DNA from: Owenia fusiformis
Taxonomy: Eukaryota; Annelida; Polychaeta; Sabellida; Oweniidae
Reading direction: 5' to 3'
NCBI GenBank assembly: GCA_903813345.2
Contig: CAIIXF020000012.1
Coordinates: 29,090,684 to 29,154,683, forward strand
Length of the DNA: 64,000 nucleotides
How positions within the stretch are numbered: the stretch's first letter is position 1; each line of letters begins with the position of its first letter. Below are positions 5,240-61,224 of this stretch, in pieces. The notes under the pieces are model-generated. The model searched no databases. It was not told the origin of the DNA and worked only from the letters and a program-made list of their open reading frames with translations. The position numbers and the translations under genes were made by a program.

Positions 5240-5261
5240 AAGAATGTTATTATGATAGGCA

Positions 5262-6401: not shown

Positions 6402-6407
6402 GAAAAC

Positions 6408-12145: not shown

Positions 12146-12181
12146 TTCATCTGGGGGTAAGGCGTGCACTTCACCGAGAAC

Positions 12182-22905: not shown

Positions 22906-22944
22906 TTAGCAGCATTCTGAGCAGTGTTTTTCCCATGCAGCCAT
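22906..22944 (-). CDS. MYND gene, last coding exon (end of the zinc finger)
   Basis: Thirteen codons, MAAWEKHCSECC and TAA. A strong acceptor (TTTATTTGTTTCAG) precedes it on the - strand. The residues supply the W-x2-H-x3-C end of the MYND finger begun in the previous exon (CQMAAWEKHCSEC at the junction). Both exons meet in phase 0. The protein ends one residue after the last zinc ligand, so the MYND domain is the extreme C terminus. This exon is invisible to ORF-length searches; the zinc-ligand spacing makes it convincing. Confidence 0.85.
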   Translation of the reverse strand: MAAWEKHCSECC

Positions 22945-23383
22945 CTGAAACAAATAAACAAGGCATGAGACTACAGTACTTGTAAAACTGCTATATTTTG
23001 CTGACTATCTACCCCATGGATAATTAAGAAGACCATTTATTATATTATCTGTAAAAGGAAGCCTTCTGATTGGTCAGTTCCTGTGCTTTACCAATCTGTA
23101 TTGCTACTGAAATTGTCCCCATTGATGCACCTCTGTCGCAATAGAGAAAATATTGGTACGAATGAGACATTCTCAGTGGCAATATAGAGGATCACACGAT
23201 CAGTGATGATTTGAGATGTACTCCACTCTCAAAATCCAGTTTAGATCCAAGTTTGAGATTTACATGTTTGATTTTCCTTATGACAGATTGTCTTCTACAT
23301 GTAGCTGTTGCCTTTTCTCAGTGTTATATTTTATGTAATTAGCATTTGTAAAATAATATGAAGTATATAATAAATCTTAATAC
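22945..23383 (-). other. Intron splitting the MYND finger
   Basis: 439 nt with donor GTATTAAG directly after the TGT CAA codons and acceptor TTTGTTTCAG. Phase 0. Contains no other feature. Confidence 0.75.
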
Positions 23384-23512
23384 TTGACATTTGATGCTGC
23401 AGTACCACATTTTCTTGCACCCGCTACAGAGGAAGGTTGCCTCACGTCCACATATACTACACATCTTGCTCCCTGCCACAATGTCTGATTCGCTCATCAA
23501 CACGAGATTTCC
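23384..23512 (-). CDS. MYND gene, penultimate coding exon (zinc finger core)
   Basis: 129 nt, 43 codons, phase 0 at both ends (acceptor TGACCTGACAG, donor GTATTA). It encodes MCSICGREATFLCSGCKK then MWYCSIKCQ. This is a MYND finger: C-x2-C-x7-C-x2-C-x4-Y-C-x3-CQ, completed by W-x2-H-x3-C in the next exon. MYND fingers in ETO/RUNX1T1, DEAF1 and ZMYND proteins bind proline-rich peptides of co-repressors. The sequence is closest in style to those transcriptional types (CGREA...CSGC) rather than to SMYD methyltransferases, judged by eye. The + strand frame over this interval is only a shadow. Confidence 0.88.
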
Positions 23513-23858
23513 CTGTCAGGTCATAAAGAATATATGGAGATACAATATGATAAAGTACAAAAAGATAAGTAACCAGTTCCAAAGTTTGGATGACTAAATT
23601 ACATGGTTGATAATGGTTTTGTCGACCTACTTTTTTAACCCTCAGGAATTTGCTAAAGAAAATGCTAATTTTTGAAGTGTATATGTATATAATGGCACAA
23701 GAGTTAAATACAAGTTGATAAAATTAAAATTACATTTTGCTGATTAACTAAACTGGTAATGTTTTGTTATCAATCTCATTTCAATTTATTTTCAAACAAG
23801 GAAACTATTTGGCAGCACCTTTATCAATATCACTAAAGCAATAAAGTACTGTACTTAC

Positions 23859-26800
23859 ATCTTTTGGAGTATACAATTTTTCTGCTGGAATTATCATTCT
23901 CTGGAGGTAAGCTGGTTCTTGCTTGTCATGACTTCTATGGTGATGACCTTCAGGATGACCTTGATTGGGCTGAGGATAACCTCTAGGGCTAGTCTGTTGT
24001 TTGTATAGCATTTGTTGATGTTCTTGGGGTTTCCCTGGAGAGAAGCCTTGCATAGGGGCAGTCTGCCAATGCTGGTTCATTTGTGGCAGTGTGGGGAGCA
24101 TCTGTCTATAGGTCTCTTGCTGGCGCTGTTTATTCCCGCCTTGCGGCAAGATGAAGGCTTCGGGGATATCTTCTGTTGAATGTCTCTTGGCAATATCTCT
24201 ATTGCCTTCATTTGGGAAGCTAGCTTGATTTTGTCTTAGAACCATCTGCTGATGAAGCTCCCTTCTTGTATCCAACACCTGTTGATTCATAGGCTCATGT
24301 ATAATCTCACTGGACAGCATATTTCTAGGATTATTATGATGATATCCAGATGATAGATTCACCTGGGTAGGCTTTTTAGGAGATAGCATAGTCCTAGGCT
24401 GTTGCTGCATTTCCATGAGATGTGGACCCCTCATTATCTTCTCAGGAGTTGGTTGTCCATTAAGGTCATCATTATCCCTTCCATTTTGCATATGCTGAGG
24501 ATATGGTCGTCCCCTAGACCTTGCAAGATTTTGTTGCTGTAAGTATCCTTGACCTTGATTCATGTGGTTCATTCTTCCAGGAGAGACATGCTGTGGCATA
24601 CCAGTGGGGGAATGTTGTACAACAGTCTGTGAGCCAGGACTGTGCATGACACCCTGTGGCCCAGGACCATGCATAACCCCCTGTACCCCAGGACTATGCA
24701 TAAGACCCTGTGGCCTTGGACCATGGATAAAACCATGTGGCCTTGATGCATGCATATTTCCCTGTGGCCCGGAACCATGCATTACACCATGGGGCCCTGG
24801 ACCGTGAATCATACCAGGTGGCCCTGTACCATGCATTACAGTTGGAGAATCATTACTGGCCACTTCTTGGGATGAATGGATAACACCATCAGCAGTTGAA
24901 ATAGTAGGACCAAAAGGACTCATGTGGCCATGTTGACTAGGTACTTGACTAAAATATGGATGAGTTCCTGGCTGTGCTTGGGATTTAGACCCTTGCGACA
25001 TATGTATTACTGGCTGTGGACTTGGCATACTCTGTGGGCTAATCAACTCATTGGTGTAGAATCGGTGATGTTGACTGGGTATCATCTGACTGGATTTTTG
25101 TGATATTGGCACCATTTGAATCATGCCTTGGGGTGGTCTATTTACCTTTGTAGCATTCTCCATAGTTTGCATATGCTTCATATGTTGCATTTTCTGTTGT
25201 TCCATCAAATGTTGTTTTTTCTGTTCAATTACTTGCTGTTTATGGTGCTCTATCATCCTTTGCGCTTGTTGCTCAAACATTTGCTGCTGTTTATGCTGTT
25301 CCATCATATGTTGCTTTTGGTGTTCCATCATTTGCTGTTGCTTCTGCAGCTCTTTCCTTTTCTGGGCCTCTACTTTCTGTTTCTCTAGTATCTCAGCCTT
25401 TCTTCGCTTTGCTTCAGTTAACTCCATTGGAAAATATTTCTCATTCACACAGTTCTGGCTTTCAATAACATCTACAAACTTCCTCTTTAGATTAGGGTGA
25501 CTCGGAGGCATGGCATACATCTGTACAGCTGATGGGTGTCCCTGCATAAGGGGCTGTCCACGAGGGGGACCAGGCATTCTCTGAGGGGACATGTTTATTA
25601 CTTGTGACTGTAAAAACCTCGGACCCTTGTTATTAGCTATTGGAGCTCTCATTCTGAGACCCTCACCAGAGCTAGTCATCATGAAGTTTGGATCAGTATT
25701 GGATCTCATGTTCTTTTCAGACCGTGGAAGCATTACCAAATTTTCATCATGAGATCTTGGCCTAGGTCTTTGCATATCATTTGCTGGGTTAAACTGGATT
25801 TGTTGATGCTCCATAGAAGTAATATTCTGTGAAGAATTTCTCCTTTGTGCACATTTCTCTGAAGGCACTTTAATGTTTACCTTTGGACTAGGAACAACTG
25901 TTAAATCAATCATATCTGGTAACTTTTTTTTATTATGGACCTGCTCAGCAACATTTTCTATATTGGTGTCCACTGACCTTTTATTCTCATGTATTGGTAC
26001 ATGTTGCACATTGTATTGAGGTTCACTATTGGGCTTTGTTGGGTCAGTTGTCACTGAATTCACTTTGTCAACAGCAACTGAATAAGCTGCCCCAGAATTT
26101 GATGAGACTGAAGTGGACACTAAAGACACATTTGGAGTTGCTGAAGTCAGCTCAGGAGTCTTTCTTCCCACCTTTTGGAATGAGACATTTGATATAGTTG
26201 TTCCTGCCAAATCTGGTAGCACATAGGCAGATTGTCCACTTGTGTTTTGGTCGGGGGTAAGTGCAACTATATCTGGTTTTGAAGGTTGGACGTTTGCAAC
26301 AGTCGCACTTGTGGGTGTACCATTAAAAGCTGAAACAGTTACAATGGTACTGTTCTGTGATATGGGCATATTTCCAGAAGATAGGATACATACAGATGTC
26401 ATAGTTGGAGAAACAGTTGAACCTATGCCGGTTGAAGGAGCTGTTGAACAATCATTAATCTTTTCCAATGTTAATTTAACAGGACTACTTGTATGTTCAT
26501 CCACAGCTACATTTTCACAATTCACAAGATCAACTGTCTCACTTTTCTCTGCTCTTGTTTCAGATCCCTCTGCTCCATTCTCTTTTCTTTCTATTGTGTA
26601 ACTTTGGTCATTTTTTGCATTATGTGATCTTGTACCATTATCTGGTGACTCATTTATATGTTTATCTACTGTGTCATGACTGACATTTGCTTTGTTTTGT
26701 GTCATACTAATGTTATCCGAGGCACTACTGGCAGATGTGATAGAGGATTGAGCAAATGATGTGTTAAAAATAACCTGTGATGATGTCATTGAGGTTACCA

Positions 26801-28663
26801 TGGTATCTAATTTGGCTTTTTCTGCCTGTAAGTAATCAGCAGTATATTTCTTTTTCGGATGTGTTGCAATCTTAGGACCTAGAGTTTCTGTGACAACAGT
26901 GTTATGAATCTTTTGAATAGAATGGGTGGAGATGGAATGAACATCTGGTGATTTTGCAACTACCAGTTCTGAGCTTTTTGGTTTAGGCCCTTCTTGGAAA
27001 GAATTTCTTATTGCATTTTCAATACACTTGTTTACCTCTGCGTGAAGATTAGTTTCAGCTGTGTTTTTAATCATTGACTCATTGTCAGAGTGTTCACGGC
27101 TTGTCAGTTTTGTGTTGTGAAGGGGTCCTTGAACACAGGTTGATACTTTGGTGTTACCATATTCTTCCTTTTTTTGACTAGAATTATTTGAAAGCATATA
27201 CGGAGTTGAATGAGCAAGTGGAGGCCTATGATCAACATTTACCAAAGTGTTTGATTGGTGAGTGTTATTATGTGCAGGCGGGGGCACCTTGGCAGACTTC
27301 ATGGAAGGTGTGTAGTTGTTATGTACAGCAGGACTGGTGCTTTTGTACAATGGAGATGTCGAAGCTCTACGTATTGGTGGACTTGTATTAAGGTATGTTG
27401 AAGGAGTTGTATTACCATATGAGGAAGGTCTGGGATTTGTATATGAAGAATGTTTGTTGTTGTGAACTGAACTTTGATTTGAATATTTAAACTCTGGGCT
27501 ATGCATTCTTTTTGTATTTAAAACAGCCTTAGTCTGTGGCTGGTTCTTCTGATCCATTTCCACACCAATAAAAGGTTTTCTTCCAACAGTCTGTAATGGT
27601 TTGGGTAGCCCCATATGGTTTATATCCCTACTATTTCCAGGCCTAATGTTAGGGTCACTTCCAACATTCATGGAAGCAACAAAGGGTCTTATTGATGCAT
27701 TATTTGTTTGCCTCTGGCTTTGTGGATCTACAGGATCATGTGGAACGTCCATTGTGATGTCATATGCCTGGCGTCGTAATGCCTCAATGGAGCCTAGCAA
27801 CATTTTCATCTGGGTCTGCTTTTGTACCAATTCTTCTTTTTCTTTCTCTTTCTTGGCCGTCAACTCCTGAATGATCTGAATCTCTCTTTGATGTCTCTCA
27901 TATTCAGATTCAAGAAATTCTAACCTGTTCATGGGCCTCAGTTGACTATTAGGAACACCATGTTGGACTGTGGGATCTGGAGAAGGTGATACCTGTTGAT
28001 TTTGATTCATAGGTACATGGTACTTAGCAGCAGGGTGTGTTGCACTGGTAGGTCTTTCTTGTACAGCCACTGTAGGTGTATGAAAGGCACTGTATTCATG
28101 CCTTGATGTCTGTGGTGTCATGGTTGGCCTTGGTGGAACCTCAAAAGGATTGATACACGATTCATCCTTTTGTCGTGGAACATCAGGAAGGTTTCCCATA
28201 AGGGGGTGATATGGTGGAGGAGGAGACCTGATTGAATCAGGGGAGGGAGCAACTTTAGACCAGTTCTTGGGATCACCAGGGAGTCTACTAAACCGAGCCT
28301 GTGGTCGAAACGGCATCTGGTACTGTACAGATGACCCTGCAGGAAAAGCTATACTGTTTTCAATTTCAGGTTGCTTCAAATATTCTCTTTGATTGTGAAT
28401 GTTGTGAAAACTCTGACCCTTCACTGAACCTAGATTATCTTGAATGGGGATGAGGTGAGGGATGGGAGGGGGAGGTTGAGTGCCATCAGGGTGGGTCCTC
28501 ACAGGCTTTATAGGGGCCCCTGGGGAGAAACATTTCTCTTGGGCCTTTAAGTGATGTAGGGTATCATTTGTATATTGAGAGAGATGCTCTCCAATTCCTG
28601 TCTGTTGAACTTGTGGCTGGACTTTCTGCAGAGGCTTAGGACGGACTGTACTGGTTGCCCCAC
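23859..28663 (-). CDS. MYND gene, large central exon (low-complexity co-regulator-like region)
   Basis: 4,805 nt, about 1,600 residues, bounded by acceptor TGTGTTGTAG and donor GTAAGTAC; it starts in phase 1 and ends in phase 0, matching its neighbours. In protein order: a Pro-rich segment, a charged coiled coil (LEFLESEYERHQREIQIIQE onward, about 27730-27930), a long Ser/Thr/Asn-rich region, a basic block (LKRKFVDVIE; EAKRRKAEILEKQKVEAQKR), a Q/M/H-rich coil (about 25140-25360), tandem units of about ten residues of MHGPGPQG type (about 24630-24840), and a Pro/Gln/His tail. No enzyme domain is seen. Composition is typical of nuclear transcription co-regulators. The frame continues 18 codons past the donor by chance. 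Function is inferred from the MYND finger and composition; the family is not recognised. Confidence 0.88.
24630..24840 (-). repeat. Coding minisatellite, 30-bp unit (MHGPGPQG-type)
   Basis: Inside the large MYND-gene exon, about seven 30-bp units encode ten-residue repeats of the MHGPGPQGVM kind (variants MHSPGVQG, IHGPRPQG, MHASRPHG). In-frame unit length means copy changes would not break the gene. Confidence 0.8.
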
Positions 28664-28981
28664 CTACAACACATATTTTCCAACACACTTTAAATTCATG
28701 TTACTATTATTAGAAAATTGGTCTAATCAATTTGATAATTTTAACATTTCTAACATAGAGAACACACATATCAAATAAGCAAAATGATAAACACTATACA
28801 GTTTTCAAAAAACATGTCTGACAGGATAATGATGGAATGAAGATGAGATGAAGAATTGAAGGTGGGTTAAAATGAAAATGGGATTAGTAAAAAATTTATC
28901 TCCGGCTGAGTGGTTCACCGCTTGTTCACAGGATGTAGTATGACTTTCATGTCTATGTATCAGTGCATAATAAAAACACAC

Positions 28982-29132
28982 GAGGCATTAACATGCAAAA
29001 TGTCACTACCTGGCATTTGTTACAGATGCAGACCAGGTAAAACAAACCACTGAATGCCAACCACCTTATATCATCCTCAAAAAATTGGAGACAATATGCC
29101 GCCACTTCTGGTGGTGCCATAATTACCCTTTT
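28982..29132 (+). mobile_element. Hairpin-ended element, compact copy without array
   Basis: About 150 bp with the left end GAGGCATTAACATGCAAAAT then GTCACTACCTGGCATTTG and the right hairpin GCCGCCACTTCTGGTGGTGC then CATAATT. It represents the family without internal tandem repeats. Confidence 0.65.
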
Positions 29133-29989
29133 AAGGTTGGTCTATTTGCATATGTTAAAGGTATATTCCCTCCAGCCCATCCTGTTAGATAACTAACGAT
29201 ACTCCCTAAATATGAAATTGAATAACATTAACTCATTCAAAACTGGGGCAAAAGCACTAAAATACTGAAGAATTTTGAAAATTGCCATACACTGTATATG
29301 GTACCTCTGAGATAATATATAAAGTATATACATGGGCATATGTATGCATATCATTTTAAAGCATATGATATACTCTTTCAGAATCAATAGGTTTTTAAGC
29401 CCCATTTATAGGTTGTCATGGTTACAAGATTCCAAAAAAACATTTGGTTTGTGCTTGGACGTGATATCACGTCCTTCGTAATCAACGTATGTGCTTTATG
29501 ATGTCATATCACGTCATTCGTAGCGAATGAGTCAAAATACAAATAACAATCATACCAAAAATTAGCATTTCCATTACACCCAAATTTCAGTTTATAAGAA
29601 GCTAGGAATATTCAATAGATTCTTGAAGTCAAAGCCAGATAGGTAGCAATTTGAACAAACTAAGAAAATAGTGTAGTGCTTATTTCAAAGGTCTATAGAT
29701 TTGTTACTCTCACTATTAACTACAATTGTATTAACCGATAACATGATGAACAAAAACAGATTATTAAAAAAAGACAAAAATATATTATATACATTAAGGC
29801 AGGCAGGTTGAGATAAAACTGTGCTGCAAATAAAGTCTGATTGGTTTAAAGTTACAAGTCACGTTTAAATACATTTTTAATACCACTAGCACTATGAGTT
29901 TGTTCACTCAGATAAGAATAATCAAAACATCACGGATTGTAATTAGAGTCGTGTTCCATGTTATTAATAAATACTGTTTACTGGCCGGT
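29133..29989. other. Intronic DNA, no gene seen
   Basis: AT-rich. A GTGATATCACGTCCTTCGTA block at 29461 is repeated imperfectly at 29504 (GTCATATCACGTCATTCGTA). No other feature. Confidence 0.45.
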
Positions 29990-30019
29990 TAAAGTCTTTT
30001 AATCCTCTTACATACTTGA

Positions 30020-30785
30020 AACCAATAAACTCTACTAGATTCATACGAATCTACTAGATTCATACGATGAATGAACTGACCACCACTGAACAATGATAGT
30101 AAACAAGATTCAATTGAAATATGATCATAATTAAAATCTACATGAACCCAGTGAAAACTGAGCTCATTAAATAACAGTTTATTGTCCCTAAAGTTCTTCC
30201 ATATTGGAATGAATGAACTGTCCAGCACAGAGTAGATCTGATCATTTAGAATAAACAAGATTCAATTGAAGGATGGTCGTAATTAAAATCTACATGAAAT
30301 GAAGGATGTTAGTAATTAAAATCTACATGAAATGGTGAACTATTGAGCTCATTAGAAAACATAATAGTTTCTTGTCCCTAAATAATGAACTGACCAGCAC
30401 AGAGTAGACCTGATCATTTAGAATAAACAAGATTCAATTGAAGGATGGTCGTAATTAAAATCTACATGAAATGAAGGATGTTAGTAATTAAAATCTACAT
30501 GAAATGGTGAACTATTGAGCTCATTAGAAAACATACATGTAATAGTTTCTTGTCACTAAAGAATGAACTGTCTCCCACAGAGTAGATCTGATATTTAGAA
30601 TAAACAAGATTCAATTGAAGGATGGTCGTAATTAAAATCTACATGCAATGGTGAACTTTTGAGCTCAATAGATAACATAATAGTTTCTTGTCCCTAAAGA
30701 ATGAACTGACCAGCACAGAGTAGATCTGATCATTTAGAATAAACAAGATTCAATTGAAGGATTGTTAGTAATTAAAATCTACATG
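30020..30785 (+). repeat. Tandem array of about 145-bp units, left part
   Basis: Units share AATAAACAAGATTCAATTGA, AGGATGGTCGTAATTAAAAT, CTACATGAAATGGTGAACTA, TTGAGCTCATTAGAAAACAT and AGTTTCTTGTCCCTAAAGAA. Some units carry an extra GAAGGATGTTAGTAATTAAA block. The array continues at 34310, so it was split by the LINE at 30798. Confidence 0.85.
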
Positions 30786-30787
30786 AA

Positions 30788-31636
30788 ATGGTGAACTACT
30801 ACTTATTGCTTCTAATAAGTGGGGACATTGAAACTAATCCAGGTCCATCAAATGATTTAAAAATCTTATTCAACAACATTAACAGTGTGAAGGCAGACTC
30901 ACTAAATCGCTTTGACTTTCTGAAAAATTATGCAGCAAAAGAAGAGTTTCATATAATTGCTTTGTGTGAAGCTGGTCATATCACAACTGATGATCTAAAT
31001 TCAAAAACTTTTGACATTAAAAATTGTGGCGCACCTAAATTTTGCACAAACTCCGGAAGGGGTCTTATCCTCTGGTGTCATGACTCTATTGATGTTCAGA
31101 TTCTCCACCAATTTAGATCAGATAATCTTGTCAATTGCTGGGCTGAAGTGAAATTAAACCACAAAACATTTCTCTATGGTTTTTTCTATAGATCACCATC
31201 ATTAAATGCTAATGATACAAGGCAGTATTTTTTAGATTTTAAAGAAAATATATCAAATGTGGCACTGCATCCAAATGATGGCATCTTTATCAATGGAGAC
31301 TTTAATGCAAGAAATGATTTTTGGTATGAAGATGATCATAATAATTTAGCCGGTTGTGAACTGCTAAGTACATTGGTTGAACTTGACCTCTTGCAGCTTG
31401 TAAACGAAGCTACAAGAATAAGACAGAATTCAAAGTCATGTATTGATCTAATAATAACAAATTCAGAACATTTAATATCACACAGAGTTGATCCCCCAAT
31501 TGGTAACTCTGACCATTGTGCTATTGTGTCGAACATAAGAGTTAAGGTCCCAAGAGAGCCATCTATTAACAAGTCATTCTTGAAAATTCAGTCAATATCG
31601 CAGCTGAAAGGTTTGTTGATAACTTCATGTCTATAA
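30788..31636 (+). pseudogene. LINE ORF2 part 1: 2A peptide and APE endonuclease
   Basis: The frame opens with an ATG that belongs to the host array (ATGGTGAAC), then element sequence encodes LLLLISGDIETNPGP, a 2A-like motif, followed by an APE-type endonuclease: FNNINSVK, IIALCEAGH, FINGDFNARNDFW, CIDLIITNS and NSDHCAIV. Catalytic Glu, Asp/Asn and His positions are recognisable. The endonuclease nicks target DNA for priming. The frame ends early near 31636 because of a frame change around 31580; the continuing protein (AERFVDNFMSIIKVNIPCK) is in another frame. Confidence 0.85.
30824..30847 (+). other. 2A-like ribosome-skipping motif DIETNPGP
   Basis: DIETNPGP is an exact match to the D(V/I)ExNPG|P consensus of 2A peptides, with the usual hydrophobic run (LLLLISG) just before it. 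2A-like sequences at the N terminus of APE-type LINE proteins are known from sea urchin, amphioxus and molluscs. The skip would fall between Gly 30842-30844 and Pro 30845-30847. Confidence 0.85.
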
Positions 31637-33714
31637 TTAAAGTTAACATTCCCTGCAAAACTTTCTCTGTACGGTATAATGATCAACCATGGTTCACTAG
31701 TACCATTAAAAAGGAAATTTACAAGCGTAATAAACTTCATCACAAATATAAAGCAACTGGCAACATTGAATTTTATAACAAATATGTAATTCAAAATAGA
31801 ACTGTGAATCAATTAATCAGTGAAGCTAAAGCAAACCATGAAGTTAAAGTCAGAGAAAAAATTGATAATGTTTCTAAAAATTCTATTGAGTATTGGACGT
31901 TGATCAAAGACTTACTTGGAAAAAATCACGCAAGTTCCTTTCCTGTTCTTATTGACCCGGTGACAAATATTTCAGCATGCAACAGTTATGATAAAGCAGA
32001 GGCTTTTTTAAAATACTTTGTCAGTAAAAACTGTGTGGAAAATGATAATATCAATGTACCACCACTTGAGTTAAGAACAAACAGCATGTTGCAGGAGATT
32101 AGAACTACACCTCAGGAGGTTCTTGAACTATTCTCAAGCCTTGACATTAATAAGTCTCATGGTCCAGATGGAGTTACTAATAGAATGATCAAGTGTTGTA
32201 CCACCAGTTTATGTATTCCAACCAGTCAATTGTTCAACAGAATTTTAGAAGAGAATGTATTTCCTGACATTTGGAAGGAAGGCACTGTAATTCCAATATT
32301 TAAGAAAGGGGACAAAGGTTCGATTAGCAATTACAGACCAGTCACCCTATTATGCACCTTCTCTAAAATACTAGAAAAAATTATTCACGGAAGACTTCTT
32401 TTTCATCTGTTAGACAATAACCTTTTGTACAAATTTCAGAGTGGCTTTCTGCCAAAACATAATACAGTAAATCAACTTGTAAATATCATTCATGACCTTC
32501 ATATTAATATAGATCAAGGTAAAAATGTACGTTCCATATTTCTCGACCTGACGTCAGCTTTTGACCTTGTTCCACACCGGTTATTACTTAAAAAACTTAG
32601 AGCTTATGGTTGCGATAATAATTTTGTTTCACTGATGACATCTTATCTTTCTAACAGGAGAATACAAGTACGGGTCAACAATAGTTTATCAAGATGGTCA
32701 AAAGACCATGAACAGTTGAATCAGTTGAATGCTGAAGTTGAACCAGAAGATAATGGTAACCGTAATCACAACTTGATCATCAATGCCGGTGTACCACAGG
32801 GGTCTGTTTTGGGACCCCTACTTTTTCTAATTTATATTAACGATTTGCCGGATAATCTTAATTCTAAAACTTTCATCTTTGCCGACGACACTTCTCTGTA
32901 TGATGCATATGATAAAAATGAAGTACACATGAACATTAATCAGCCATTACAACATGACCTTGACACTCTAAACAATTGGGCTTCAGTGTGGAAAATGAAA
33001 TTCAAAGCCCAAAAGAGTGCTGATATAACATTTTCAGGGCTACGCACCAAAGTTAACAATCAGTCTCCCCTGTTTTTAGGGGATGAAGAAGTTCCCAAAT
33101 GTATAATGCATAAACACCTCGGATTAGTCATGGACAGTAAACTAAATTTCAATGCACACATCGACCAATTAATTGTAAAGATTAACAACTTAATCAGACC
33201 ATTGAAAGCTCTATGCAAAAAATTATCAGCCAAGCATCTTGAGACAATTTATAATGCTTACTTTATACCTCACTATGACTATTGTGATATAATTTACAAC
33301 AAAGCTTCCTTAACCAAACTCCAAGCTCTAGATAAGTTACACTACAGAGCAGCCTGTTTGATATCTGGTGCAATACATGGATCAAGTACTGACAAGGTAT
33401 TTGCATCCCTAAATTGGAAATCTCTTGCATCTAGAAGAGAAGAACATTTGAAAATATTTATTTTTAAAGCACGGTTTAATTGTTTTCCACCTTTCATATG
33501 TGATTTAGTTCGCTCCTATGAAATCACTCATACTAGAAACTTAAGATCCCAGCCAGACTATCGGATTCCAAACCAGATTAGTGTGTCTAGTGAGAAGTCC
33601 ACATTATTTAAATCCATGACCCTATGGAATAAACTTCCAAATACATCCAGAGTTGGTCAACCTATTTCAAGATTTAAAAAATCAGTAAGAGAGTGCATGA
33701 GCCTTCGAAAATGA
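31627..33714 (+). pseudogene. LINE ORF2 part 2: reverse transcriptase
   Basis: 695 codons continue the LINE protein. Blocks in order: SHGPDGVTNRMIK, WKEGTVIPIFKKGDKG, NYRPVTLLCTFSKILEK, FLDLTSAFDLVPH, AGVPQGSVLGPLLFLIYIND, FADDTSLY and HKHLGLVMDSKLNFNAH. All core RT motifs including FADD are intact. RT copies the element RNA at the nicked target. The listed ATG is internal; the true protein begins upstream of the endonuclease. This type of RT is CR1/L2-like by its GVPQGSVLGP and FADDT blocks. Confidence 0.88.
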
Positions 33715-34094
33715 ATATTTTTATGCCAAGACATATTGAGATAGTTTTTAATAGGCTTAGAGCTGGCCTCCTCTTGAATAGCCATCTATATTCTCACAAC
33801 TTTGTCTCAGTAACTGATCCTAAATGTCCATGTGGTTCTAGGTTTCAAACTACAGAGCATTTTCTGGTTAAATGTCCACTGCTTGTGAATGAAAGAGATG
33901 TTTTACTTGCAGGGCTAACAGACTTAAATCTTTTAAGTGAATTGGAAAACTTTTCAAACCAAAATAAAACTGATTTTCTCTTGTATGGTGACAATTCTCT
34001 AAGTGTTGAAGTCAATGAAAAATTAATTGAGATTTCAGCTCACTTCACTAGTCAAGCTTTTAAAGCTCTTGATCAAGATCTTTTTAATAACTAG
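33693..34094 (+). pseudogene. LINE ORF2 part 3: C-terminal zinc-knuckle region
   Basis: After a frame change near 33705, 133 codons encode NRLRAGLLLNSHLYSHNF and a CPCGSRFQTTEHFLVKCP motif (Cys-x-Cys, His, Cys), as at the C terminus of many invertebrate CR1/L2-like elements. It would normally be fused to the RT. The stop is at 34092-34094. Confidence 0.8.
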
Positions 34095-34309
34095 GGTAAA
34101 GAATTGAGGTAGAGGGTGGGGCAAGCAGAGTAAACACAGTAATACATTCCATATTATTGCAAATGTTCAGTGTATTTTCCTAATCAATCAATATTTTTTG
34201 TCAAAATAGTTACAATTGCCGCTAATGTTATCTAATAACCTTGGCAATTTTTCTTATGTACACATTTGATGATTGATCGAAATAAACTGGAATATTAAAA
34301 AAAAAAAAA

Positions 34310-34880
34310 AAATGGTGAACTATTGAGCTCATTAGATAGCCAAATATAATAGTTTCTTGTCCCTAAAGAATGAACTGTCCACCACAGAGTAGATCTGATC
34401 ATTTAGAATAAACAAGATTCAATTGAAGGATGGTCATAATTAAAATCTACATGAAATGAAGGATGGTCGTAATTAAAATCTACATGAAATGGTGAACTAT
34501 TGAGCTCATTAGAAAACATAATAGTTTCTTGTCCCTAAAGAATGAACTTACCACCACAGAGTAGGTCTGATCATTTAGAATAAACAAGATTCAATTAAAG
34601 GATGGTCGTAATTAAAATCTACATGAAATGGTGAACTAGTGAACTCCTTAGATAATATAATAGTTTCTTGTCCCTAAAGAATGAACTGACCACCACAGAG
34701 CAGGTCTGATCATTTAGAATAAACAAGATTTAATTGAAGGATGGTCGTAATTAAAATCTACATGAAATGGTGAACTATTGAGCTCAATAGATAACATAAT
34801 AGTTTCTTGTCCCTAAAGCATCAGAACAGACCACCACAGAGTAGACTTGATCAATGATAGTAAACAAGATTCAATTGAAG
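34310..34880 (+). repeat. Tandem array of about 145-bp units, right part
   Basis: Continuation of the array at 30020-30785 with the same blocks. It ends at ATTCAATTGAAG, where the palindrome and tRNA-like element intervene, and a last fragment (AAGGATGCTCGTAATTAAAT) resumes at 35944. Confidence 0.85.
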
Positions 34881-34885
34881 TATAA

Positions 34886-35734: not shown

Positions 35735-35735
35735 T

Positions 35736-44492: not shown

Positions 44493-45002
44493 CTGAAATC
44501 GAACATAAAATAATGACATATAAAGTACGAATAAACATTTAAACTGCATAATCAATAGTTGTAATCTAAAACAAGCTATAGTTTACGTTTTCAGAAAATT
44601 GAAAAAATGAACATATTTTTTCACAAATTAACGATAGCAAATAAATAATCAAAAATTAAAAAAATACTGGTTTGATTAATTACTGATAATTGTCATCATG
44701 AAACTTCTCATCTTGCAGATGTACCTAAGCTCCAATACTAATGACAGTATCTCAGGAATGAAATTGAAATTGATGGCCTCAAAGCACTCATTTGGTGACA
44801 TATTTGCAATCTTGATAGTGTTGGAGATTGTATCACAATCATTACTGGTTTCTGGGAACAGATTAGTAAGGTATTTGATACTAATTGAGGTTTGCAATTC
44901 ATAATGTCTCATCTATGGACAATTTATAGTATGCCCTTGAAAAAAGTATATTTTCCCCATAGAATGGATTGTGGTGAATTACTATAGGTATTTTGAGGAA
45001 AT

Positions 45003-46245
45003 TACTCTCTGATGAAATGCTATACCTTTCAGCTGACTTGACAACATTACTTTGTGATGAAATGCTATACCTTTTTGTCTGACTTGACAACATTACTTTG
45101 TGATGAAATGCTATACCATTTAAGCTGACTTGAAAACATTACTTTGTGATAAAATGCTATAACATTTAAGCTGACTTGACAACATTACTTTGTGATGAAA
45201 TGCTATACCATTTAAGCTGACTTGACAACATTAATTTGTGATAAAATGCTATACCATTTAAGCTGACTAGACAACATTACTTTGTGATGAAATGCTATAC
45301 CTTTTTGTCTGACTTGACAACATTACTTTGTGATGAAATGTTATACCATTTAAGCTGACTTGATAACATTACTTTGTGATAAAATGCTATACCATTTAAG
45401 CTGACTTGACAACATTACTTTGTGATAAAATGCTATACCATTTAAGCTGGCTAGACAACATTACTTTGTGATGAAATGCTATACCTTTTTGTCTGACTTG
45501 ACAACATTACTTTGTGATGAAATGCTATACCTTTTTGTCTGACTTGACAACATTACTTTGTGATGAAATGCTATACCTTTAAGCCGACTTGACAGCACTA
45601 CTTTGTGATGAAATGCTATACCTTTTAAGCTGACTTGACAACATTACTTTGTGATGAAATGCTATACCTTTTAAGCTGTCTTAACAACATTACTTTGTGA
45701 TGAAATGCTATACCTTTCAGCTGTCTTGACAACATTACTTTGTGATGAAATGCTATACCTTTTAAGCTGTCTTGACAACATTACTTCTTGATGAAATCCT
45801 ATACCTTTTAGCTTGACTTGACAGCCCTACTTCGTGACGAAATGCTATACCATTTAAGCTAACGATTTATGTAAGCGGTGCATTCGGTAATGCGTTCAGT
45901 AATGTATATTTTGAACATAGTGTTTGCAAATTGATGCCTGGGGATAACATGAAATAAGAAAAAACTGTCGAGTTTGAAATTCAAAACTACATAAAATTTG
46001 GTAATTTGTTTATTTTTGTCGTTAGGGCATGGTCTACATTGACTTGACAGCACTACTTTGTGATGAAATGCATGCTATACCTTTTAAGCTGACTTGACAG
46101 CAATACTTCTTGATGAAATCCTATACCTTTTAAGCTGACTTGACAGCAATACTTCTTGATGAAATCCTATACCTTTTAAACTGACTTGACAGCCCTACTT
46201 CATGACGAAATGCTATACCATTTAAGCTAACTTGACAACATTCTT
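45003..46245 (+). repeat. Minisatellite, 46-bp unit, more than 20 copies, interrupted
   Basis: Unit AAGCTGACTTGACAACATTA then CTTTGTGATGAAATGCTATA and CCTTTT. Subtypes (TTTTTGTCTGACTTG versus CATTTAAGCTGACTTG) alternate. About 170 bp of unrelated sequence (45865-46036) interrupts the array before it resumes. Confidence 0.9.
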
Positions 46246-46436
46246 TTAATATCGTGATAAAATCCAATTCTTTATTCTACATCCTTGTCTACTATTTAAT
46301 TTCAGTACATGTACATTTAATTAAATACCCAATGTTATTTTCTGGTACAAAATAAAGTAGGAAGATATGAGTTTGCTTCCTTAGTTTTTCAGGAAAGTAT
46401 TCTTGTTTCTTCTTTGGGTAAATCTGGAAAGACCCA

Positions 46437-46870
46437 TGCTAACTCAATGAAATACTCATATTTCAATTTACTCAATATAATACTCATATTTCAATTTACT
46501 CAATATAATATTCATATTTCAATTTACTCAATATAATACTCATATTTCAATTTACTCAATATAATACTCATATTTCAATTTACTCAATATAATACTCATA
46601 TTTCAATTTACTCAATATAATACTCATATTTCAATTTACTCAATATAATACTCATATTTCAATTTACTCAATATAATACTCATATTTCAATTTACTCAAT
46701 ATAATACTCATATTTCAATTTACTCAATATAATACTCATATTTCAATTTACTCAATATAATACGCATATTTCAATTTACTCAATATAATACGCATATTTC
46801 AATTTACTCAATATAATACTCATATTTCAATTTACTCAATATAATACTCATATTTCAATTTACTCAATTT
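46437..46870 (+). repeat. Minisatellite, 28-bp unit, about 15 near-identical copies
   Basis: TTTACTCAATATAATACTCA followed by TATTTCAA, almost invariant. Units are contiguous with no spacers. The high identity indicates very recent expansion or strong homogenisation. Confidence 0.95.
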
Positions 46871-46911
46871 ACCTAACACAATATGCTTACAAGAATGCTA
46901 TACCAGAAACA

Positions 46912-47000
46912 AGGCAACATTAGCAAAATGTCACCACCTGCCATTTGTTGCAGACACTGACCACCCGCCGAACAATGTCCACAAAAACAGCGTCCATGTA
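46912..47000 (+). mobile_element. 5' fragment of the hairpin-ended family
   Basis: CAAGGCAACATTAGCAAAAT then GTCACCACCTGCCATTTGTT, with a CCACCCGCCG stretch after it. The 3' hairpin was not found. Confidence 0.5.
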
Positions 47001-47976
47001 TTCATACTTATTACCAGAAAATCACAATACTCCGATTAAAGCTCCTTGAGTTTCTGTATATGTTAGTGTTTTACTACATGATTGCTAATTAATCTCATAT
47101 TTTCCATTAGTCTTATCAGCATTACGGCTCGTGCGATAAATTGTCCATATTTGAAAACGGACTCTACAGACAAACTATATATATATTCCCACGTCAGCTA
47201 GTTATATTTCATATATGTGTACAGTTTATACATAGTAAAACCAATATCTGAAATATAGTATAGATACATGTAATTACACCTGTTTATAGTGATACAGTCA
47301 ATCATCATATGATAGCATTGGTGTTTCTATACCATCATATTAGAATATTAAGGCAGATTATACAGCAGTCAATGTTGTTGGTAAAAACTCCTGGAGCAAA
47401 TTCTGTATATTCATTTTATTCAGGTGGGGGGGGCAATTATTCATTGTATTCAGAGCACGTGTCAGTGTATACATGTATTGTATACTCCTGTATTGTATAC
47501 TTATGTTTTCACGTCTGATTGAGGATATAAACTTCCTTGGCTAATATCAGTGTAAAATTGTCGCTTTGAATACCATTCTGATATCTGTAATTTTTCAAAT
47601 AGACCCTCAAGTGCCGGTTTAACTTTATTACTAAAAAATCTAGAGATTTATTTATCAAACTTCAGGAACAATTGTAAAATTGATTCCTGCATATCCTGTG
47701 AACATTTTATTGAAATCCATGCATTTTCAAAAAATATATCAAAATAAAAAATATGGACATTTTTTTAGCCCACCCTGTAGTTTATTAACTGTAATTTTTT
47801 TGTTCATTAATAAATTGTTCTCACACTTGACATGGCCATCATATGCCTTTTTGGTATCATGGTGTTACCATGCCATATTTTATATATACATGTATATATT
47901 AAAAGGAAAATAAATAAATGATGATATTACAGAAAGTCTGGACTGTTTCCTGTTATCGGTTGGATTATAGAAATAT

Positions 47977-48459
47977 TTAAAACCTGATCAAGCTCGTAAA
48001 ACAAGCCCTGTAATGATTATCCTGCTCAACTAAATACACGTACAATATTGACATATCATGTACGCTGTATATAGAAGCATAAGTCATTGTTCGACTAAAC
48101 ATAAGCAATGAGTTCATGTTAATTAAAATTTTCAACATTTGGTTATAATTAACACTGTCGTGATTTTTCATTCTAACTTTACATATGGTTGTTGCCGCTG
48201 TTGCTTTAATATTGGATTTTACACAAATGAATCCTACACAAATTTCTATTTTTAAGACATCCATTAAAACATCAGAATACAATTTAACCTGGTTTCTAAA
48301 CTTGTAAATGGCAAAGCTATTGGTTTCATATAATTTGACACTGGCTTGTCTGTTGGTGTGGGTAGTATCAGATTTAGAGAGTAACCTAAGATGTAATGAA
48401 AATTGTTTCAATTTAGTATAATAGACAGGAAAAGGGGTCTTATCACAGATTTTTTTCAA
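47977..48459 (-). CDS. Unassigned 160-codon open frame in an intron
   Basis: An ATG-started frame encodes MKKICDKTPFPVYYTKLKQF and onward, ending FTSLIRF. I recognise no domain, signal peptide or repeat. It lies on the same strand as the MYND gene but inside its intron, without clear splice sites. In AT-rich DNA a frame this long is unusual but possible by chance. It could be an old mobile-element or gene fragment. Confidence 0.2.
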   Translation of the reverse strand: MKKICDKTPFPVYYTKLKQFSLHLRLLSKSDTTHTNRQASVKLYETNSFAIYKFRNQVKLYSDVLMDVLKIEICVGFICVKSNIKATAATTICKVRMKNHDSVNYNQMLKILINMNSLLMFSRTMTYASIYSVHDMSILYVYLVEQDNHYRACFTSLIRF

Positions 48460-49007
48460 TATTTTAATTTTTTGTTATCTTAAAAAGCACAAAAAGACCT
48501 TTCAAATCAGCCATGGCTTATGTCTTAATAATTTTAATTTTTGTGTAATAAGATAGGTTTTCCTGTTTTGAGGCTAAAATATAAGTTGCATGGCAACTAG
48601 AACATGTGATGGTTGAGGAAGTATCAAAATTACATATGAAAGAGGAAGAATGTTCTACACTGCATACGTCATAAGCACAAGCCCCTCAATAAAATTGGCA
48701 TAAGATCCACTTTTAGATCACTGTTTTTTTAAATGAGGTGAAGTCTTGATTCTAAATACTAAGAGTGAAAAGAATTATTCCTGGGGTCCAAGGTACAATT
48801 TCCAGTTCCAAACTTATGGAGGGGAGTGTATATGCCACTGCAATAAAGACGTGGTCCTGTTTTTTAAATGAAGTGAAGTCTTGATTCTAAATACTAGGAG
48901 TCAAAGTAATTATTCCTTGGGCCAAACGTACATTAATAGGAGTGCAGGTGAGAAAAGGTTTAAATAACTGTTTCACTTTACAGATCTTTGACCACATAAC
49001 AAAATAA

Positions 49008-49075
49008 ACAAGGCATCAACATGCAAAATGTCACCACCTGCCATTTGTTACAAACAACGTACAAAAATATGTAGA
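49008..49075 (+). mobile_element. 5' fragment of the hairpin-ended family
   Basis: ACAAGGCATCAACATGCAAA then ATGTCACCACCTGCCATTTG and TTACAAAC, like the left ends at 28982 and 58122. No right hairpin follows nearby. Confidence 0.55.
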
Positions 49076-51169
49076 CTAACAACCTAACAAGTGTAGACAT
49101 AAAAATGTATATTTTCCTTTAACTTGGATTCTTCAAAAACTCACCATTCTTGCCTTATAAAATTGTTACTTATTCGATTATTTGATATCAACTTCACTAT
49201 TCCGCAACTATGGACATTATACAATATACATTCATCAAACAAAAATGACTTATACTCATTATATTAATATGATAGTAATAGGAGTATAATATAATCAAAA
49301 TTGTTGTTTCATTTGGAAGATACCGACTTTAATTCAGCGAATATTGTCCAATTTCAAGAAAATGATATACTCACTGAAATTTGATGATCAGAGTATCTCG
49401 CCTACATACTTGATTTACATTAAATGTATATTGTACAAAGTTCACAATTATACAGTTTACAATAGCCTTTCTGATAGTCTATTTCTCTTATTTAAAAGAG
49501 AGCTTCGTCAACACTTTCCGAGAGATAATCCTTTTATATAGCCTTAGCCAATCAGAATAGGTCAATCAAAATCCAGCTAGTCAATCAGAATTGCAGACAT
49601 AGAACATTAAGCCTTCATATGTAGCTGACCTTTATTTCATGTTCAAACTTCCATAAAAAATGCACGACAGCTTCTTTAGGAATTATAAGATCTTCTCCAA
49701 ATCTGAAATGTATTGCTATTTGTTGGCCCTATTAAGAGCATAGTTAATACTAGACCTCAGGGTTAATTTACTGTTAAACATATAGGCCAATCAGACTAAT
49801 TTAGCTAATGTTCTTGTTCTGCCTATATCGAGGAGTAAAATTGTATATAGACAGCTATAGTTAATTGTTATGGCCTCATTTATACTCAGTTGACGCATTA
49901 GGAGCAATTAATCAACAATTAGGCCAAGGCAATTTAATTTTTAAAAATTCAAACGGTTGGAATATATGTTAATATACATAGGATAAGCTCATGTCCTTTA
50001 AAACATGTACGTTAATATTAATTTTCATTTGCTAAAATTCCATTTTCTTTTTTTAGTTAAAGGGAGACAGTCATTTTGACAAGCCATGAATTTCCAATAT
50101 ACCATTGGAAAGGTTGGGGTAGAAAGACATGTGTGGTTGTAAAGGTCTAAGTCAGAAAATTGAAAACTATATCGACTCTCCTTCAAGGTCATTTGTCCCA
50201 TGAAAAAAAATAATTTGGCATAAGTTATAAAATTTCTTCTTTCTTTTTGAATTGCCCTCTGTATTGATTAATGAATGATATAAACCTTGAAACATTCCCA
50301 TATAACAGTGAAAAAATGAAACCCTGTAGGAAAACCCTGTCTCACCTTATTCTCTTAGCATAAGCCTTAAAATAATTCATATTACATGGAGAAAAGACAG
50401 ACTACAGGACAGGATATTCAACAAGTTTTTGAACATTTTGCAAGATAAAGATGCAAAATGCATTAACAGTTAGATATGAGAGCCACCTATTGGCAATTTT
50501 AAAAAGTGCAGAATCTTTTTGGCTGGAATTATGCATGACCCTCAAATAGGACAATCAGTGACATACATCTTATACTTTATCTGGGTTGTAGCTAAATCCA
50601 GATGTTGCTCTGAATATTTGAATATGTTATTACTCTAAGTGGTTATATATCATTTATTATAGACTTTGATGAATTATACTCATTACTTCAAGTTTTAGGA
50701 GTCCTGGAACATTACATTGTGTATGATTAGTGTGAATATCTTAGAAATATTGTGTTAATGGCCCTGTTAGTGGAAATTTGGATTTATTAGGTTAGTGGAA
50801 ACCTAGATTTATTTTTTACATGTTTTTCCAAATAGTACTTATAACTGTTATGTAATTGGTGTTATGTAGATTCCTTTGTGTTTCTATCGACAAACTTAAG
50901 GAAATAAACTAAACTAAGGTAACATTCACAAATTCAACTGCTTGCTGACAGTTTAACCAATTTATTTACTCATAAATGAGTCTGATAAAATAGTAAGTTA
51001 AAATGTCAGCCATCAGTTGAATTCACAAATACTACCTTAATCTTTCTAGAGGCAATACATGCCTTTGAACATTCAAATAATGCGTTCATGAATTTGAAGG
51101 GGAGCCAATTAATCTACAAAAAATATTTCTAGAAAAAAGGCAAAAGTAATCAAACCTCATTTATATATT

Positions 51170-51625
51170 GACACCCAATTTCAGTGACATTAGTATTGAC
51201 ACCCAATTTCAGCGACACTAGTATTGACACCCAATTTCAGTGACATTAGTTTTGACACCCAATTTCAGTGACATTAGTATTGACACCCAATTTCAGCGAC
51301 ACTAGTATTGACACCCAATTTCAGTGACATTAGTTTTGACACCCAATTTCAGTGACATTAGTATTGACACCCAATTTCAGTGACATTAGTATTGACACCC
51401 AATTTCAGTGACATTAGTATTGACACCCAATTTCAGTGACATCAGTGTTGACACCCAATTTCAGTGACATTAGTATTGACACCCAATTTCACACCAAATT
51501 TCAGTGACAATATAGTATTGACACCCAATTTCAGTGACATTAGTATTGACACTCAATTTCAGTGACATGAGTATTGACACCCAATTTCAGCGACATTAGT
51601 ATTGACACTCAATTTCAGTGACGTG
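51170..51625 (+). repeat. Minisatellite, 28-bp unit, about 16 copies
   Basis: TATTGACACCCAATTTCAGT then GACATTAG, with a few variant and one partly deleted unit near 51490. Confidence 0.95.
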
Positions 51626-51798
51626 TGTTTCGTTATATAATTGTTAGTATTTTTCCATTAATGTACCTGTATGTATACTGATATTGCATCATGGGCTTTC
51701 AATTTGTATATAGCATAATAACACGTGAACGCATGTAATCTTGTACATCAAATCAAAAGAATCACTTTACATTTACCATATAGCAAATACCAATTTAC

Positions 51799-52017
51799 CT
51801 CATAGATTCTGTCGAAGGGGTTTTTGCCCCACTCGGCATCTCATCATCCATCTCAGCCATAGCCCTTTGTACCTCTTTTTCAATGTCAAGGTCACCACCA
51901 TCTTCTGCTTCTTTAGCCTCACTCTGAGTTTCAGCCTCATTCTGAGATTTCACATCAGCAGGGTCAGCCTCATTTTGACTTTGGTCAACCTTACTCTTGT
52001 TTTCAGGCTTTGAATAT
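51799..52017 (-). CDS. MYND gene exon encoding an acidic segment
   Basis: 219 nt. Acceptor ATTTATATTTCAG, donor AG|GTAAATTG. The reading frame that joins both neighbours has no stop: it encodes YSKPENKSKVDQSQNEADPA onward to EVQRAMAEMDDEMPSGAKTP and STESM, then Arg across the junction. It contains imperfect SQNEAD/SQNEAE/TQSEAK repeats and is strongly acidic. It has no ORF-track support on its own strand because it is short, but exon phases (2 and 2) agree exactly. The + strand open frame over it is a shadow. Confidence 0.8.
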
Positions 52018-54530
52018 CTGAAATATAAATATTGTAAATTAAAATTATAGCTATGACGATCAAATTAGACGTGTAAAAATGGTATAATCTCAAATATCAG
52101 GGTTATTTCAATCTATTAATATATACTACACGTAGGATTCTCGCTATATGTTTAAAGCTTATACCATTATTTCACAAATGGATTTTGTTCAGTTGTTGTT
52201 CAATTTGTTAGCTCATCTTTAGCTTTACCATGTGAGCTACAAGAAGTACAGATAACTTCAAGCTCATGCATAGGGCATTAATTCAATCGAATATCTGTGT
52301 TTAAAAGAATTTCGGACCTATAAGTAATTATAGGAGTTCATGTATAACATTATAAATCTAAAGATAGCATAAAATACAACAATTCAATTTTTGCATTTTT
52401 CATACAATATAACCGCTTCATGTCTTGAATTATGAAATATGTGAAACCTGAAACTCGAAACATGAAGTTGAAACTAATAAACGGCCACGCAGAATATTAT
52501 TAATATTTTGTCATTGGCCCCTGCGGGATTTTAATATCAGATCAGAAAATCTGATCATTGTTGAAAATAAAAAACATTGTTATTTTCTATTTACAAACTT
52601 AAAATAGTTAATAAAAAAACTATGTGCATCGTGGTAATATTTTTTTGAATAACTTTTAATAATATGTGGAATTGCTGTTGTTATTTCGAAAAGCATGTCA
52701 ATCCATCTAAATATAGCACTTCTGATTGGTTGCCTGTAATGTGTCTGCTGACGGGTGTATAACCCTGATGTAACTAACTGCCTTAAAAGGTAGACTGAAA
52801 TATGCCATTTACCATGTTCTGTTATCTATACAGTGCGTTTAAAAAAAATTCAAAAATATTGTAAAACCACAAAACCACTGTTGATTACATCAATTTCATT
52901 CAGTTCACCAAAAAGCCACATTTCTCGTCTCCCCATCGATATGTCACTTGTTCATATGTGATCATGGACCACAATTTTTCTATTTGTTGCATTTTTACGA
53001 ATGCACTGTATACATGTAACTTCCTCTTTTCATAAACAACAATTGCAAATGAGGCAATTAAACAAAATAGCAATTAACACTAAGACGAAACTGTTGTGCA
53101 ACTGTTTTTGTCTATTAAAATATTTGTTGCACTATTTACCTAAAAACATCTTTTCATTAGCAATGTTATCAGCAATCAACAAGTTAGTGTGCAAAAAAAC
53201 ATTTGGATGACGTATCTGGTTAAAATATATGTATTTTGCCCATTTTTGGTCCAAAATTGTCAAATGTGAATTCTGGAATTTTTTTAAAGTGTCTGTTCGA
53301 TGCTCATGGGGTCAAAATACAGCTTATACACGTTCTTAATGAAGTAAATACCACTAACATGTAAAACCAGGTACCGTTCTTGTAAATATTTTTATAAATG
53401 TGAAATTTGATGTTCAAAATCGGGAACACAATGTCAAATGCCAATCATGACATCACGAACAGAACGGGTTTTGAATATGTTGTTGGAGTTCATAATCCCC
53501 GAATGTGCTTATAAAGTGTTAGTGTAATTGATTGCAACTGCATTCAATGAAGTGAGGAATTGACTCAGAGATGACTATGGAGCCACGTTTTTTTCTCCAA
53601 TAAACAAAAAATATGATACCTAAATTAGAGCTTCCGACCCAGCGGTGCGTTTTCACATAGCTAGTCATGCAGAATTATTTTTTGGCCAGTCAGAACACAA
53701 TATAGAAAATAAACACGCTCAGTTGATAGTATTACATAACTAAAGCTGTCTAAAATCTTGTAACCAAAAGGCATTGAACCATGAGGTGAATTCGGTAAGC
53801 GTTACTCCTTTCTGGCCAATCAGAACACAATATAACATAAACAATTTTAACTTGGCACTTAAGTTGCATAACGCATTGCCGTTAAAAACCCATAACCGGT
53901 TCTGTTCGTGACGTCATGTTTTTTCGCGTGAAATCTTATGTTGCCACTAATGAACAAACGGAATGAGTTGAGAGTCTGTTGGAATACTATTTTTACTTAC
54001 TGATATCTGTTTAATCAATTATAGTGAGAAAAAATAAACAGAAATTACCGAATTAGCACTTTAAAAGGTGCATCCCCCTTGTCTGAGCAATTTTGGATTT
54101 TTTGCCAAAATAGTCAAATTAGAACCTCTCAGATATTTTTAAAAGTAGCAAAAGCTGGCTATGGGCCTGATATGGGAGACAGAAGAAATATAGCTGTTTC
54201 ACCATTTGCATTTACTTGGGACAACCATAAACTAGAAATTTCACCATCTTTGAATAAAGTCCTACACTGTATGAAAATGGACTTATATTTATATCACTAG
54301 AAGATCTACATCATATGATCTTATCAAATCAATAGATATTTCACCATATTTGAATATAATAAGATCTATATCATACATGTATGTCCGCCTGTCAGATTAC
54401 TAGTACAAGAAATTTCACAATCATTTGAGAAATAGAGGTTCTTGTATGCGTATCTTTGCAAGATCGTCCATTCTTGATGAGTTGAAGACGTAACATTAAT
54501 TAAACTTTTGGATCAAATAATTGTACTTAC
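52018..54530 (-). other. Intron of the MYND gene, 2.5 kb
   Basis: Donor GA|GTAAGTA at the 54530 side, acceptor ATATTTCAG at the 52018 side, phase 2. Contains an inverted-repeat element (53446-53918) and fragments of a repeat with GTCAAATGTGAA / GGCTATGGGCC text (53230-53290, 54075-54165) related to the hAT-like MITE at 40591. Confidence 0.75.
53446..53918. repeat. MITE-like element with about 27-bp inverted ends
   Basis: CATGACATCACGAACAGAAC at 53446 is inverted as GTTCTGTTCGTGACGTCATG ending at 53918, and both are followed inward by GGGTTTT-like text. Inside, GGCCARTCAGAACACAATAT occurs twice (53685, 53815). No clear target duplication. Confidence 0.5.
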
Positions 54531-54903
54531 TCTTTACTCGGTACTTTTTTGTCCTCCTTTTGTAGACACTTGGTCGACTTATCCAACCCTTCATCTGCCT
54601 TACTTTGAGCGTTTTCATTCTGATTGCCTGAATGTGACTCAGTTTTGAGTTTATCGTCCGGTTTCAGCTTATCAATTTTATCTTTAACTTTGGATGGTTT
54701 ATTCTCGTTCTTTGAGCCCAATTCTACATTTTTCAGTTCAACACCTGACATTAACTGAATTTTCTGTTCGAGCCAATTGTTCCGAGGAAATTCCTGCGAT
54801 AAACGTGCGTTGAATTCACTGTGAACAAGGTCCTGCATCATGTTAGGATTCGATCCTCGAGTATGCGATCTTGTCACTGGCTTCCCGTTATTAGCACTAT
54901 CAA
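54531..54903 (-). CDS. MYND gene, most upstream exon seen
   Basis: 373 nt, acceptor CTGTTTTCAG and donor GA|GTAAGTA. It starts in phase 1, so at least one coding exon lies upstream, probably beyond 64000. It encodes DSANNGKPVTRSHTRGSNPN, then a segment that looks folded (MMQDLVHSEFNARLSQEF and NNWLEQKIQLMSGVELKNVE), then a Lys/Glu-rich tail. The middle segment may be part of a conserved N-terminal domain; I do not recognise it. There is no ATG that must be the start; the annotated-looking GTG at 54877 is internal to the exon. Confidence 0.8.
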
Positions 54904-61072: not shown

Positions 61073-61224
61073 GAAGTGATATTTTTGGGGTATATATAAG
61101 ATATTAGAAAAATAATTCCTTTTACTTCACGAAATGCTTAGATTTTGTTACGGAGAACTAATGCGAGAGCATGATCTAGGATGCACGAACTGACTGTGCA
61201 ATAGACAGTGAACTTCTACCTGAA

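Follow-up and report, generated by a model that had tools for sequence, protein, structure and literature searches.

Exon structure of a gene ending in a MYND finger

We analysed a 64,000-nucleotide stretch of the genome of the annelid Owenia fusiformis (assembly GCA_903813345.2, contig CAIIXF020000012.1, positions 29,090,684 to 29,154,683; hereafter the window), the minus strand of which carries six exons of a large gene whose product ends in a MYND zinc finger. An earlier note on this DNA had proposed that the exons are phase-consistent, and when they were joined by script the internal borders proved to be AG acceptors and GT donors with phase agreement at 5/5 junctions, the first three splitting the codons GA/A, AG/A and G/GT (a slash marks the junction) and the remaining two being in phase 0. 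The joined sequence of 6,740 nt holds a single stop, at its end, and encodes 2,245 residues, in keeping with the more than 2,200 that had been claimed. The six-exon model inside the window is confirmed as that of a real gene, the junctions of which would be spliced in vivo.

Exon 1 (54903-54531, 373 nt; ttttcag/TTGATA ... TAAAGA/gtaagt) opens inside a codon, with 2 nt of it following the acceptor, and is therefore an internal exon; its frame is open from 54919, 16 bases upstream. Two in-frame Met codons occur at residues 21-22 of this exon, and a start at the first in-frame ATG would give a protein of 2,225 amino acids. Exon 2 (52017-51799, 219 nt; atttcag/ATATTC ... TATGAG/gtaaat) is followed by exon 3 (44492-43318, 1,175 nt; atttcag/AGATTC ... 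AAAATG/gtaagt), which is disordered and has a PLNLS stretch near its end, and by exon 4 (28663-23859, 4,805 nt), which encodes the main body and ends at the donor AAAGAT/gtaagt. The finger had been assigned to two tiny exons of 43 and 12 codons, and it does lie there: exon 5 (23512-23384, 129 nt) holds 43 codons with six of the eight zinc ligands and the Cys-Gln pair, and the terminal exon 6 (22944-22906) holds 12 codons and the stop, MAAWEKHCSECC. A 52-bp tandem duplication (22819-22921, 2.0 copies, 90% matches) spans the final 16 bases of exon 6, including the stop, and runs into the 3' flank.

Coding potential was measured with a hexamer model trained on a 10.3-kb open reading frame (ORF) outside the window, which is itself argued below to be part of the same gene. 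The in-frame scores of exons 1-4 are +49, +69, +190 and +549 bits, and no other frame exceeds +8.5. Splice sites were ranked by a generic site score against all GTs or AGs on the strand. The exon 4 donor is good by this measure (0.6% of GTs score higher), as is the exon 5 acceptor (2% of AGs higher), and the exon 6 acceptor, tgtttcag, is within the top 0.3% of AGs. An in-phase alternative acceptor for exon 4 is present at 28519.

The finger is a genuine MYND domain split by an intron

The C-terminal finger is a genuine MYND finger, and it is split by an intron that sits between its conserved Gln and Trp. As the earlier note had read it, exon 5 encodes C-x2-C, C-x2-C and YC-x3-CQ and exon 6 encodes W-x2-H-x3-C, and all eight zinc ligands (C-x2-C, C-x2-C, C-x3-C, H-x3-C) are found in the spliced sequence. 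The MYND call had been made to depend on the score of the Pfam hidden Markov model zf-MYND (PF01753), which gives 40.7 bits on the last 84 residues against a cut-off of 22.7 and aligns over profile positions 1-39, its full length. Unspliced, exon 5 alone scores 34.2 bits in a profile search of the genome and covers profile positions 1-29 only; adding exon 6 extends the match to position 39, with exact spacing. A stop-free AG/xxxWxxHxxxC frame occurs at one place, exon 6, in 608,000 positions (2 x 304 kb, both strands), in what is a post hoc test, since the spacing was taken from exon 6 itself.

The gene likely extends upstream of the window

The earlier note had described a large gene running from 54903. 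Its model holds within the window, but the start probably does not, since in-phase exons continue upstream; their coordinates are given here in window numbering, carried on through the following 240 kb of the chromosome. A coding scan identified, on the same strand, a long open exon of 10.3 kb, taken as 111545-101213, and an exon at 100775-100491. A 60-nt mini-exon lies at 70323-70264, also on this strand, and both it and the 100775-100491 exon have acceptors and donors that rank among the best 0.1-0.3% of all AGs and GTs. The mini-exon is the sole sense AG/GT pair with its phase and an open frame (30-400 nt) between 55.0 and 100.4 kb at 3/3 score thresholds, and the antisense strand yields none. 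The resulting nine-exon chain is in phase, comprises 17,418 nt with a single stop at its end, and encodes 5,805 residues; without the mini-exon it is likewise open and encodes 5,785. The upstream exons likely belong to the same gene, of which the six-exon piece would be the 3' part only, with at least three extra exons and about 3,560 extra residues out of the window. The coding scan of the next 240 kb gave nothing convincing 5' of the 10.3-kb exon, and the gene's 5' end was not found.

A long and mostly disordered body

The 2,245-residue protein contains 10.3% Ser and 9.0% Pro, and 76-86% of the residues of exons 1-4 are disorder-promoting by a simple residue count. The long body had been called Q/M-rich, which is true of residues 1641-2190, where 80 of the 550 residues are Q and 41 are M; over the whole protein the shares are 8.4% Q and 4.2% M. 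Stretches without Pro or Gly are helix-permissive, for example residues 833-878 and 1668-1764, the latter Q/M-rich. AlphaFold2, run on exon 1 alone with no alignment, returned a mean pLDDT (predicted local distance difference test score) of 59.2, with helices at residues 19-37 and 42-52 at pLDDT ~72, which is at most a hint that some helical structure may be present.

In the exons scanned, where exon 2 and the mini-exon were not scanned separately, no Pfam family other than the finger passes its cut-off. The earlier note had known of no named family combining such a body with a terminal MYND finger; Pfam agrees to the extent that the finger alone is recognised. Among candidates that we rejected, DUF6092 on exon 4 reaches 16.5 bits against a cut-off of 28.7, and WH_GDS1, VirE1 and TCAD2 on the upstream exons are all below their Pfam cut-offs. 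A search of Protein Data Bank (PDB) sequences covered exon 4 and the last 950 codons of the 10.3-kb ORF: exon 4 had no match up to E 0.1, and the sole match of the ORF segment up to E 1, an Alba protein (E 0.0039), was taken as chance.

Fourteen linear motif patterns were each compared with 500 shuffles of the sequence. A SUMO-interaction-like MIDLT at residue 1506 is reached by 4/500 shuffles and a looser form by 24/500, a weak signal after 14 tests, and SP/TP sites number 43 against a shuffle mean of 34.0 (29/500 shuffles reach this count).

Relationship of the finger to other MYND fingers

Matches to zf-MYND occur at 25 places in the genome at E up to 0.001, this finger included, and a search with the finger itself added two more. 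The last 84 residues gave 12 matches in the genome, three of which are this gene; the best non-self match (41% identity, E 0.0026) is an ETO-like finger. A search with exons 1-2 gave two matches, both self, and the gene is apparently single-copy, with no paralogue detected by sequence in its own genome. Names of fingers rest here on likeness to solved or otherwise known sequences and, for ZMYND8 and ZMYND11, also on the Pfam model PF24324. The ETO-like finger (C3:6498691) and the fingers at C1:52269336 and C7:2424513, which we take to be ZMYND8-like and ZMYND11-like respectively, are each encoded in one exon, and an EGLN-like finger is found at C8:15647314. The ZMYND10-like finger (C5:1512252) is cut within YC-x3-C by a GTAAGA donor, and another finger, at C1:56149279, begins at an acceptor at profile position 16, inside the domain. 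The interruption by an intron had been put forward as notable, a view that these two other cut fingers in the same genome do not sustain. The gene is ordinary in its finger and in the splitting of it; what is unusual is its size and its architecture.

Among solved fingers, DEAF1 (E 8.3e-7), ZMYND10 (E 9.4e-7) and CBFA2T1 (2.2e-6) come closest and are nearly tied. In the exons scanned, from a gene whose 5' end was not found, there is no match to SAND, TAFH (NHR1), PHD, bromo, PWWP or SET. The genome contains three SAND matches, on C1 or C11, with none on C12 or near a MYND match, and of the 17 places matched by the human DEAF1 finger none is near a SAND match; hence a complete DEAF1 gene was not seen in the genome. 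Searches of viral and bacterial contigs, collections without animal proteomes, confirmed no relatives among 9, 35 and 53 pattern matches.

DEAF1 resembles the protein described here in its C-terminal finger, the closest solved one by sequence if only by a narrow lead, but it differs in its SAND domain, and the annelid protein is far larger. The ETO/MTG/nervy proteins (CBFA2T1-3, RUNX1T1) have a finger that can be aligned with ours over its full length, and our Ser, Gln and Trp recur in this genome's ETO-like finger, whereas no TAFH was found here and the ETO-like finger is separate. ZMYND8 and ZMYND11 are similar in their long disordered stretches and in a YCSIKCQ-like core, which is that of the human proteins and which appears as YCSTKCQ in the ZMYND11-like finger of this genome. 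They differ in their PHD, bromo and PWWP domains, both of their fingers lie elsewhere in the genome, and PF24324, the ZMYND8/11 finger model, gives 14.3 bits here against a cut-off of 27 but 52.2 and 57.1 bits on two other fingers of the genome. ZMYND10, a small cilia assembly factor, is second closest among solved fingers and its counterpart in this genome is likewise cut by an intron, but its donor falls a few residues before the Cys-Gln at which our finger is cut. The SMYD proteins are set apart by a SET domain into which the MYND finger is inserted, whereas the exons scanned here gave no SET match.

According to the DEAF1 study (PMC3555993), the residues expected to touch corepressor peptides are Met512, Glu514, Thr516, Gln529 and Trp533, the ETO finger recognises PPPLI in SMRT and NCoR, and the binding of DEAF1 itself is weak (KD 5.30 and 3.08 mM). 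The ZMYND8 finger binds PPPL motifs of GATAD2A with a docked interface of Phe1037, Trp1041, Gln1051 and Trp1055 (PMC13196413). In an ungapped alignment with the five DEAF1 contacts as listed in PMC3555993, Gln529 and Trp533 are identical in our finger, Thr is replaced by Ser, as in the ETO-like finger, Met by Thr and Glu by Leu; the retained Gln and Trp are the equivalents of Gln1051 and Trp1055 of ZMYND8 (PMC13196413). On this alignment, peptide docking by the finger is plausible.

A possible role as a nuclear scaffold

Our tentative proposal, by analogy with these systems, is that the gene may encode a giant nuclear scaffold, mostly disordered, which docks a proline-rich partner through its terminal finger. 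The finger would grip a short PPPL-type proline-rich peptide of that partner, as in ETO, DEAF1 and ZMYND8, which would tie the scaffold to a chromatin or corepressor complex and might thereby serve repression, while the disordered body would gather other partners. If the upstream exons belong, the product would be no shorter than 5,805 residues, or 5,785 if the mini-exon is left out, with the C-terminal MYND finger as its only recognised domain. Literature searches aimed at such a gene turned up no description of one, as far as titles and the openings of abstracts reveal. The locus illustrates that a giant disordered gene, fragmented by domain scans and length filters, can close with a MYND finger encoded in two tiny exons. 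If transcripts confirm the nine-exon chain, the product would be unusually large for a MYND protein and would be a candidate for a chromatin scaffold of which Pfam recognises the finger only.

Several observations weigh against the gene model or against the scaffold proposal. At the level of the gene model, exons 5 and 6 are without coding bias (-9.7 and -1.4 bits, uninformative), the exon 5 donor CAA/GTATTA is weak (29% of GTs on the strand score higher), as is the acceptor that opens exon 4 at 28663 (40% of AGs higher), and AATAAA and ATTAAA are absent from the 1,006 bases 3' of the stop. Both splice sites of the 10.3-kb exon are mediocre, being outscored by 16% of AGs and 7% of GTs, and, with the 5' end not found, a defining N-terminal domain may be missing. 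At the level of function, nuclear localisation signal (NLS) patterns of the KR type are not in excess (2 against a shuffle mean of 2.31), so that nuclear location is predicted from composition and analogy. The CtBP-type pattern has 2 matches, a number reached by 52/500 shuffles, while PLNLS, PxLxP, PPPL, HP1 and the remaining patterns do not rise above shuffles and no known corepressor-binding motif is prominent. Only two of the five DEAF1 contacts (PMC3555993) are identical, with one conservative and two different.

The 45.6-kb gap between 100491 and 54903, the mediocre sites of the 10.3-kb exon and the paired Met codons of exon 1 would all suit an arrangement of two genes, in which the window gene has a non-coding first exon and starts at Met residue 21 of exon 1, and the 10.3-kb and 100775-100491 exons belong to a same-strand neighbour. 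We consider this unlikely: the first 20 codons of exon 1 are already coding-like (+14.1 bits in frame against 7.5 and 0.8 in the other frames), the 100775-100491 exon and the mini-exon combine highly ranked sites with a fit in phase on both sides, and the nine-exon chain holds a single stop. It is more improbable still that the protein has diverged from a known MYND family, be it DEAF1, ETO or ZMYND8/11, and that the N-terminal domain which defines the family is encoded in exons not found. Such a kinship could be hidden in the missing 5' end, and in favour of DEAF1 its finger is the closest solved one despite the near tie and no complete DEAF1 gene was seen (0/3 SAND matches near a MYND match); yet the ETO-, ZMYND8-, ZMYND11-, ZMYND10- and EGLN-like fingers occupy separate places in the genome, the first three each in a single exon, all three SAND matches lie on C1 or C11 rather than C12, and the ZMYND8/11 model stays below its cut-off.

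There is similarly little to recommend the idea that the finger exons mark a minor isoform or another gene and that the main product ends with exon 4. The frame of exon 4 does remain open for 54 nt past its donor, giving 17 codons to a stop and ending VSTVLYCFSDIDKGAAK, and the weak exon 5 donor points the same way, but the exon 4 donor, itself a good one, joins exon 5 in phase, and exon 6 completes the finger profile exactly. The complete finger would be lost in this read-through form, reached when the exon 4 donor is unused, and also when the exon 5 donor is unused, where the frame runs on as VLRFIIYFILFYKC and then stops. With two such finger-less ends a splice switch is conceivable, but the ends are no evidence for one. 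The farther-reaching extension of the scaffold proposal, that the gene may represent an undescribed animal family of giant nuclear scaffolds of ~5,800 residues or more whose C-terminal finger is toggled by splicing, is speculative and in our view improbable.

Repeats and other open frames

The 14.6-kb intron between 43318 and 28663 harbours, antisense to the gene, a non-LTR (long terminal repeat) retroelement (30776-34094, plus strand) with endonuclease and reverse transcriptase frames, and GDIETNPGP in the first of these is presumably a 2A-like peptide. The 17-mer CAAATGGCAGGTGGTGA occurs four times with up to two mismatches (29003, 46931, 49031 and 58143, all minus; 0.01 expected); the copies, in introns and the 5' flank of the gene, probably represent a dispersed repeat. 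Four long minisatellites are located at 45001-46868, 51166-51622, 59538-60233 and 61223-61826, their units measuring 27-46 bp, and the two at 59.5 and 61.2 kb give rise to long open frames on both strands that are spurious.

Elsewhere in the window, two minus-strand frames are of retroelement origin: 10220-12181, of endonuclease/reverse-transcriptase type, and 3625-5263, with a reverse transcriptase and an H2C2 integrase zinc-binding piece. At L016:4570-5034 (minus strand), outside the window, lies an open frame of 155 codons that resembles the N-terminal region of a Crypton-type tyrosine recombinase. Inside the window, a 578-codon open frame at 6345-8081 (plus strand) encodes a TRIM-like protein with RING and B-box domains, and pieces judged similar to it by eye lie ~240-285 kb away on the other strand and may represent an expanded family.

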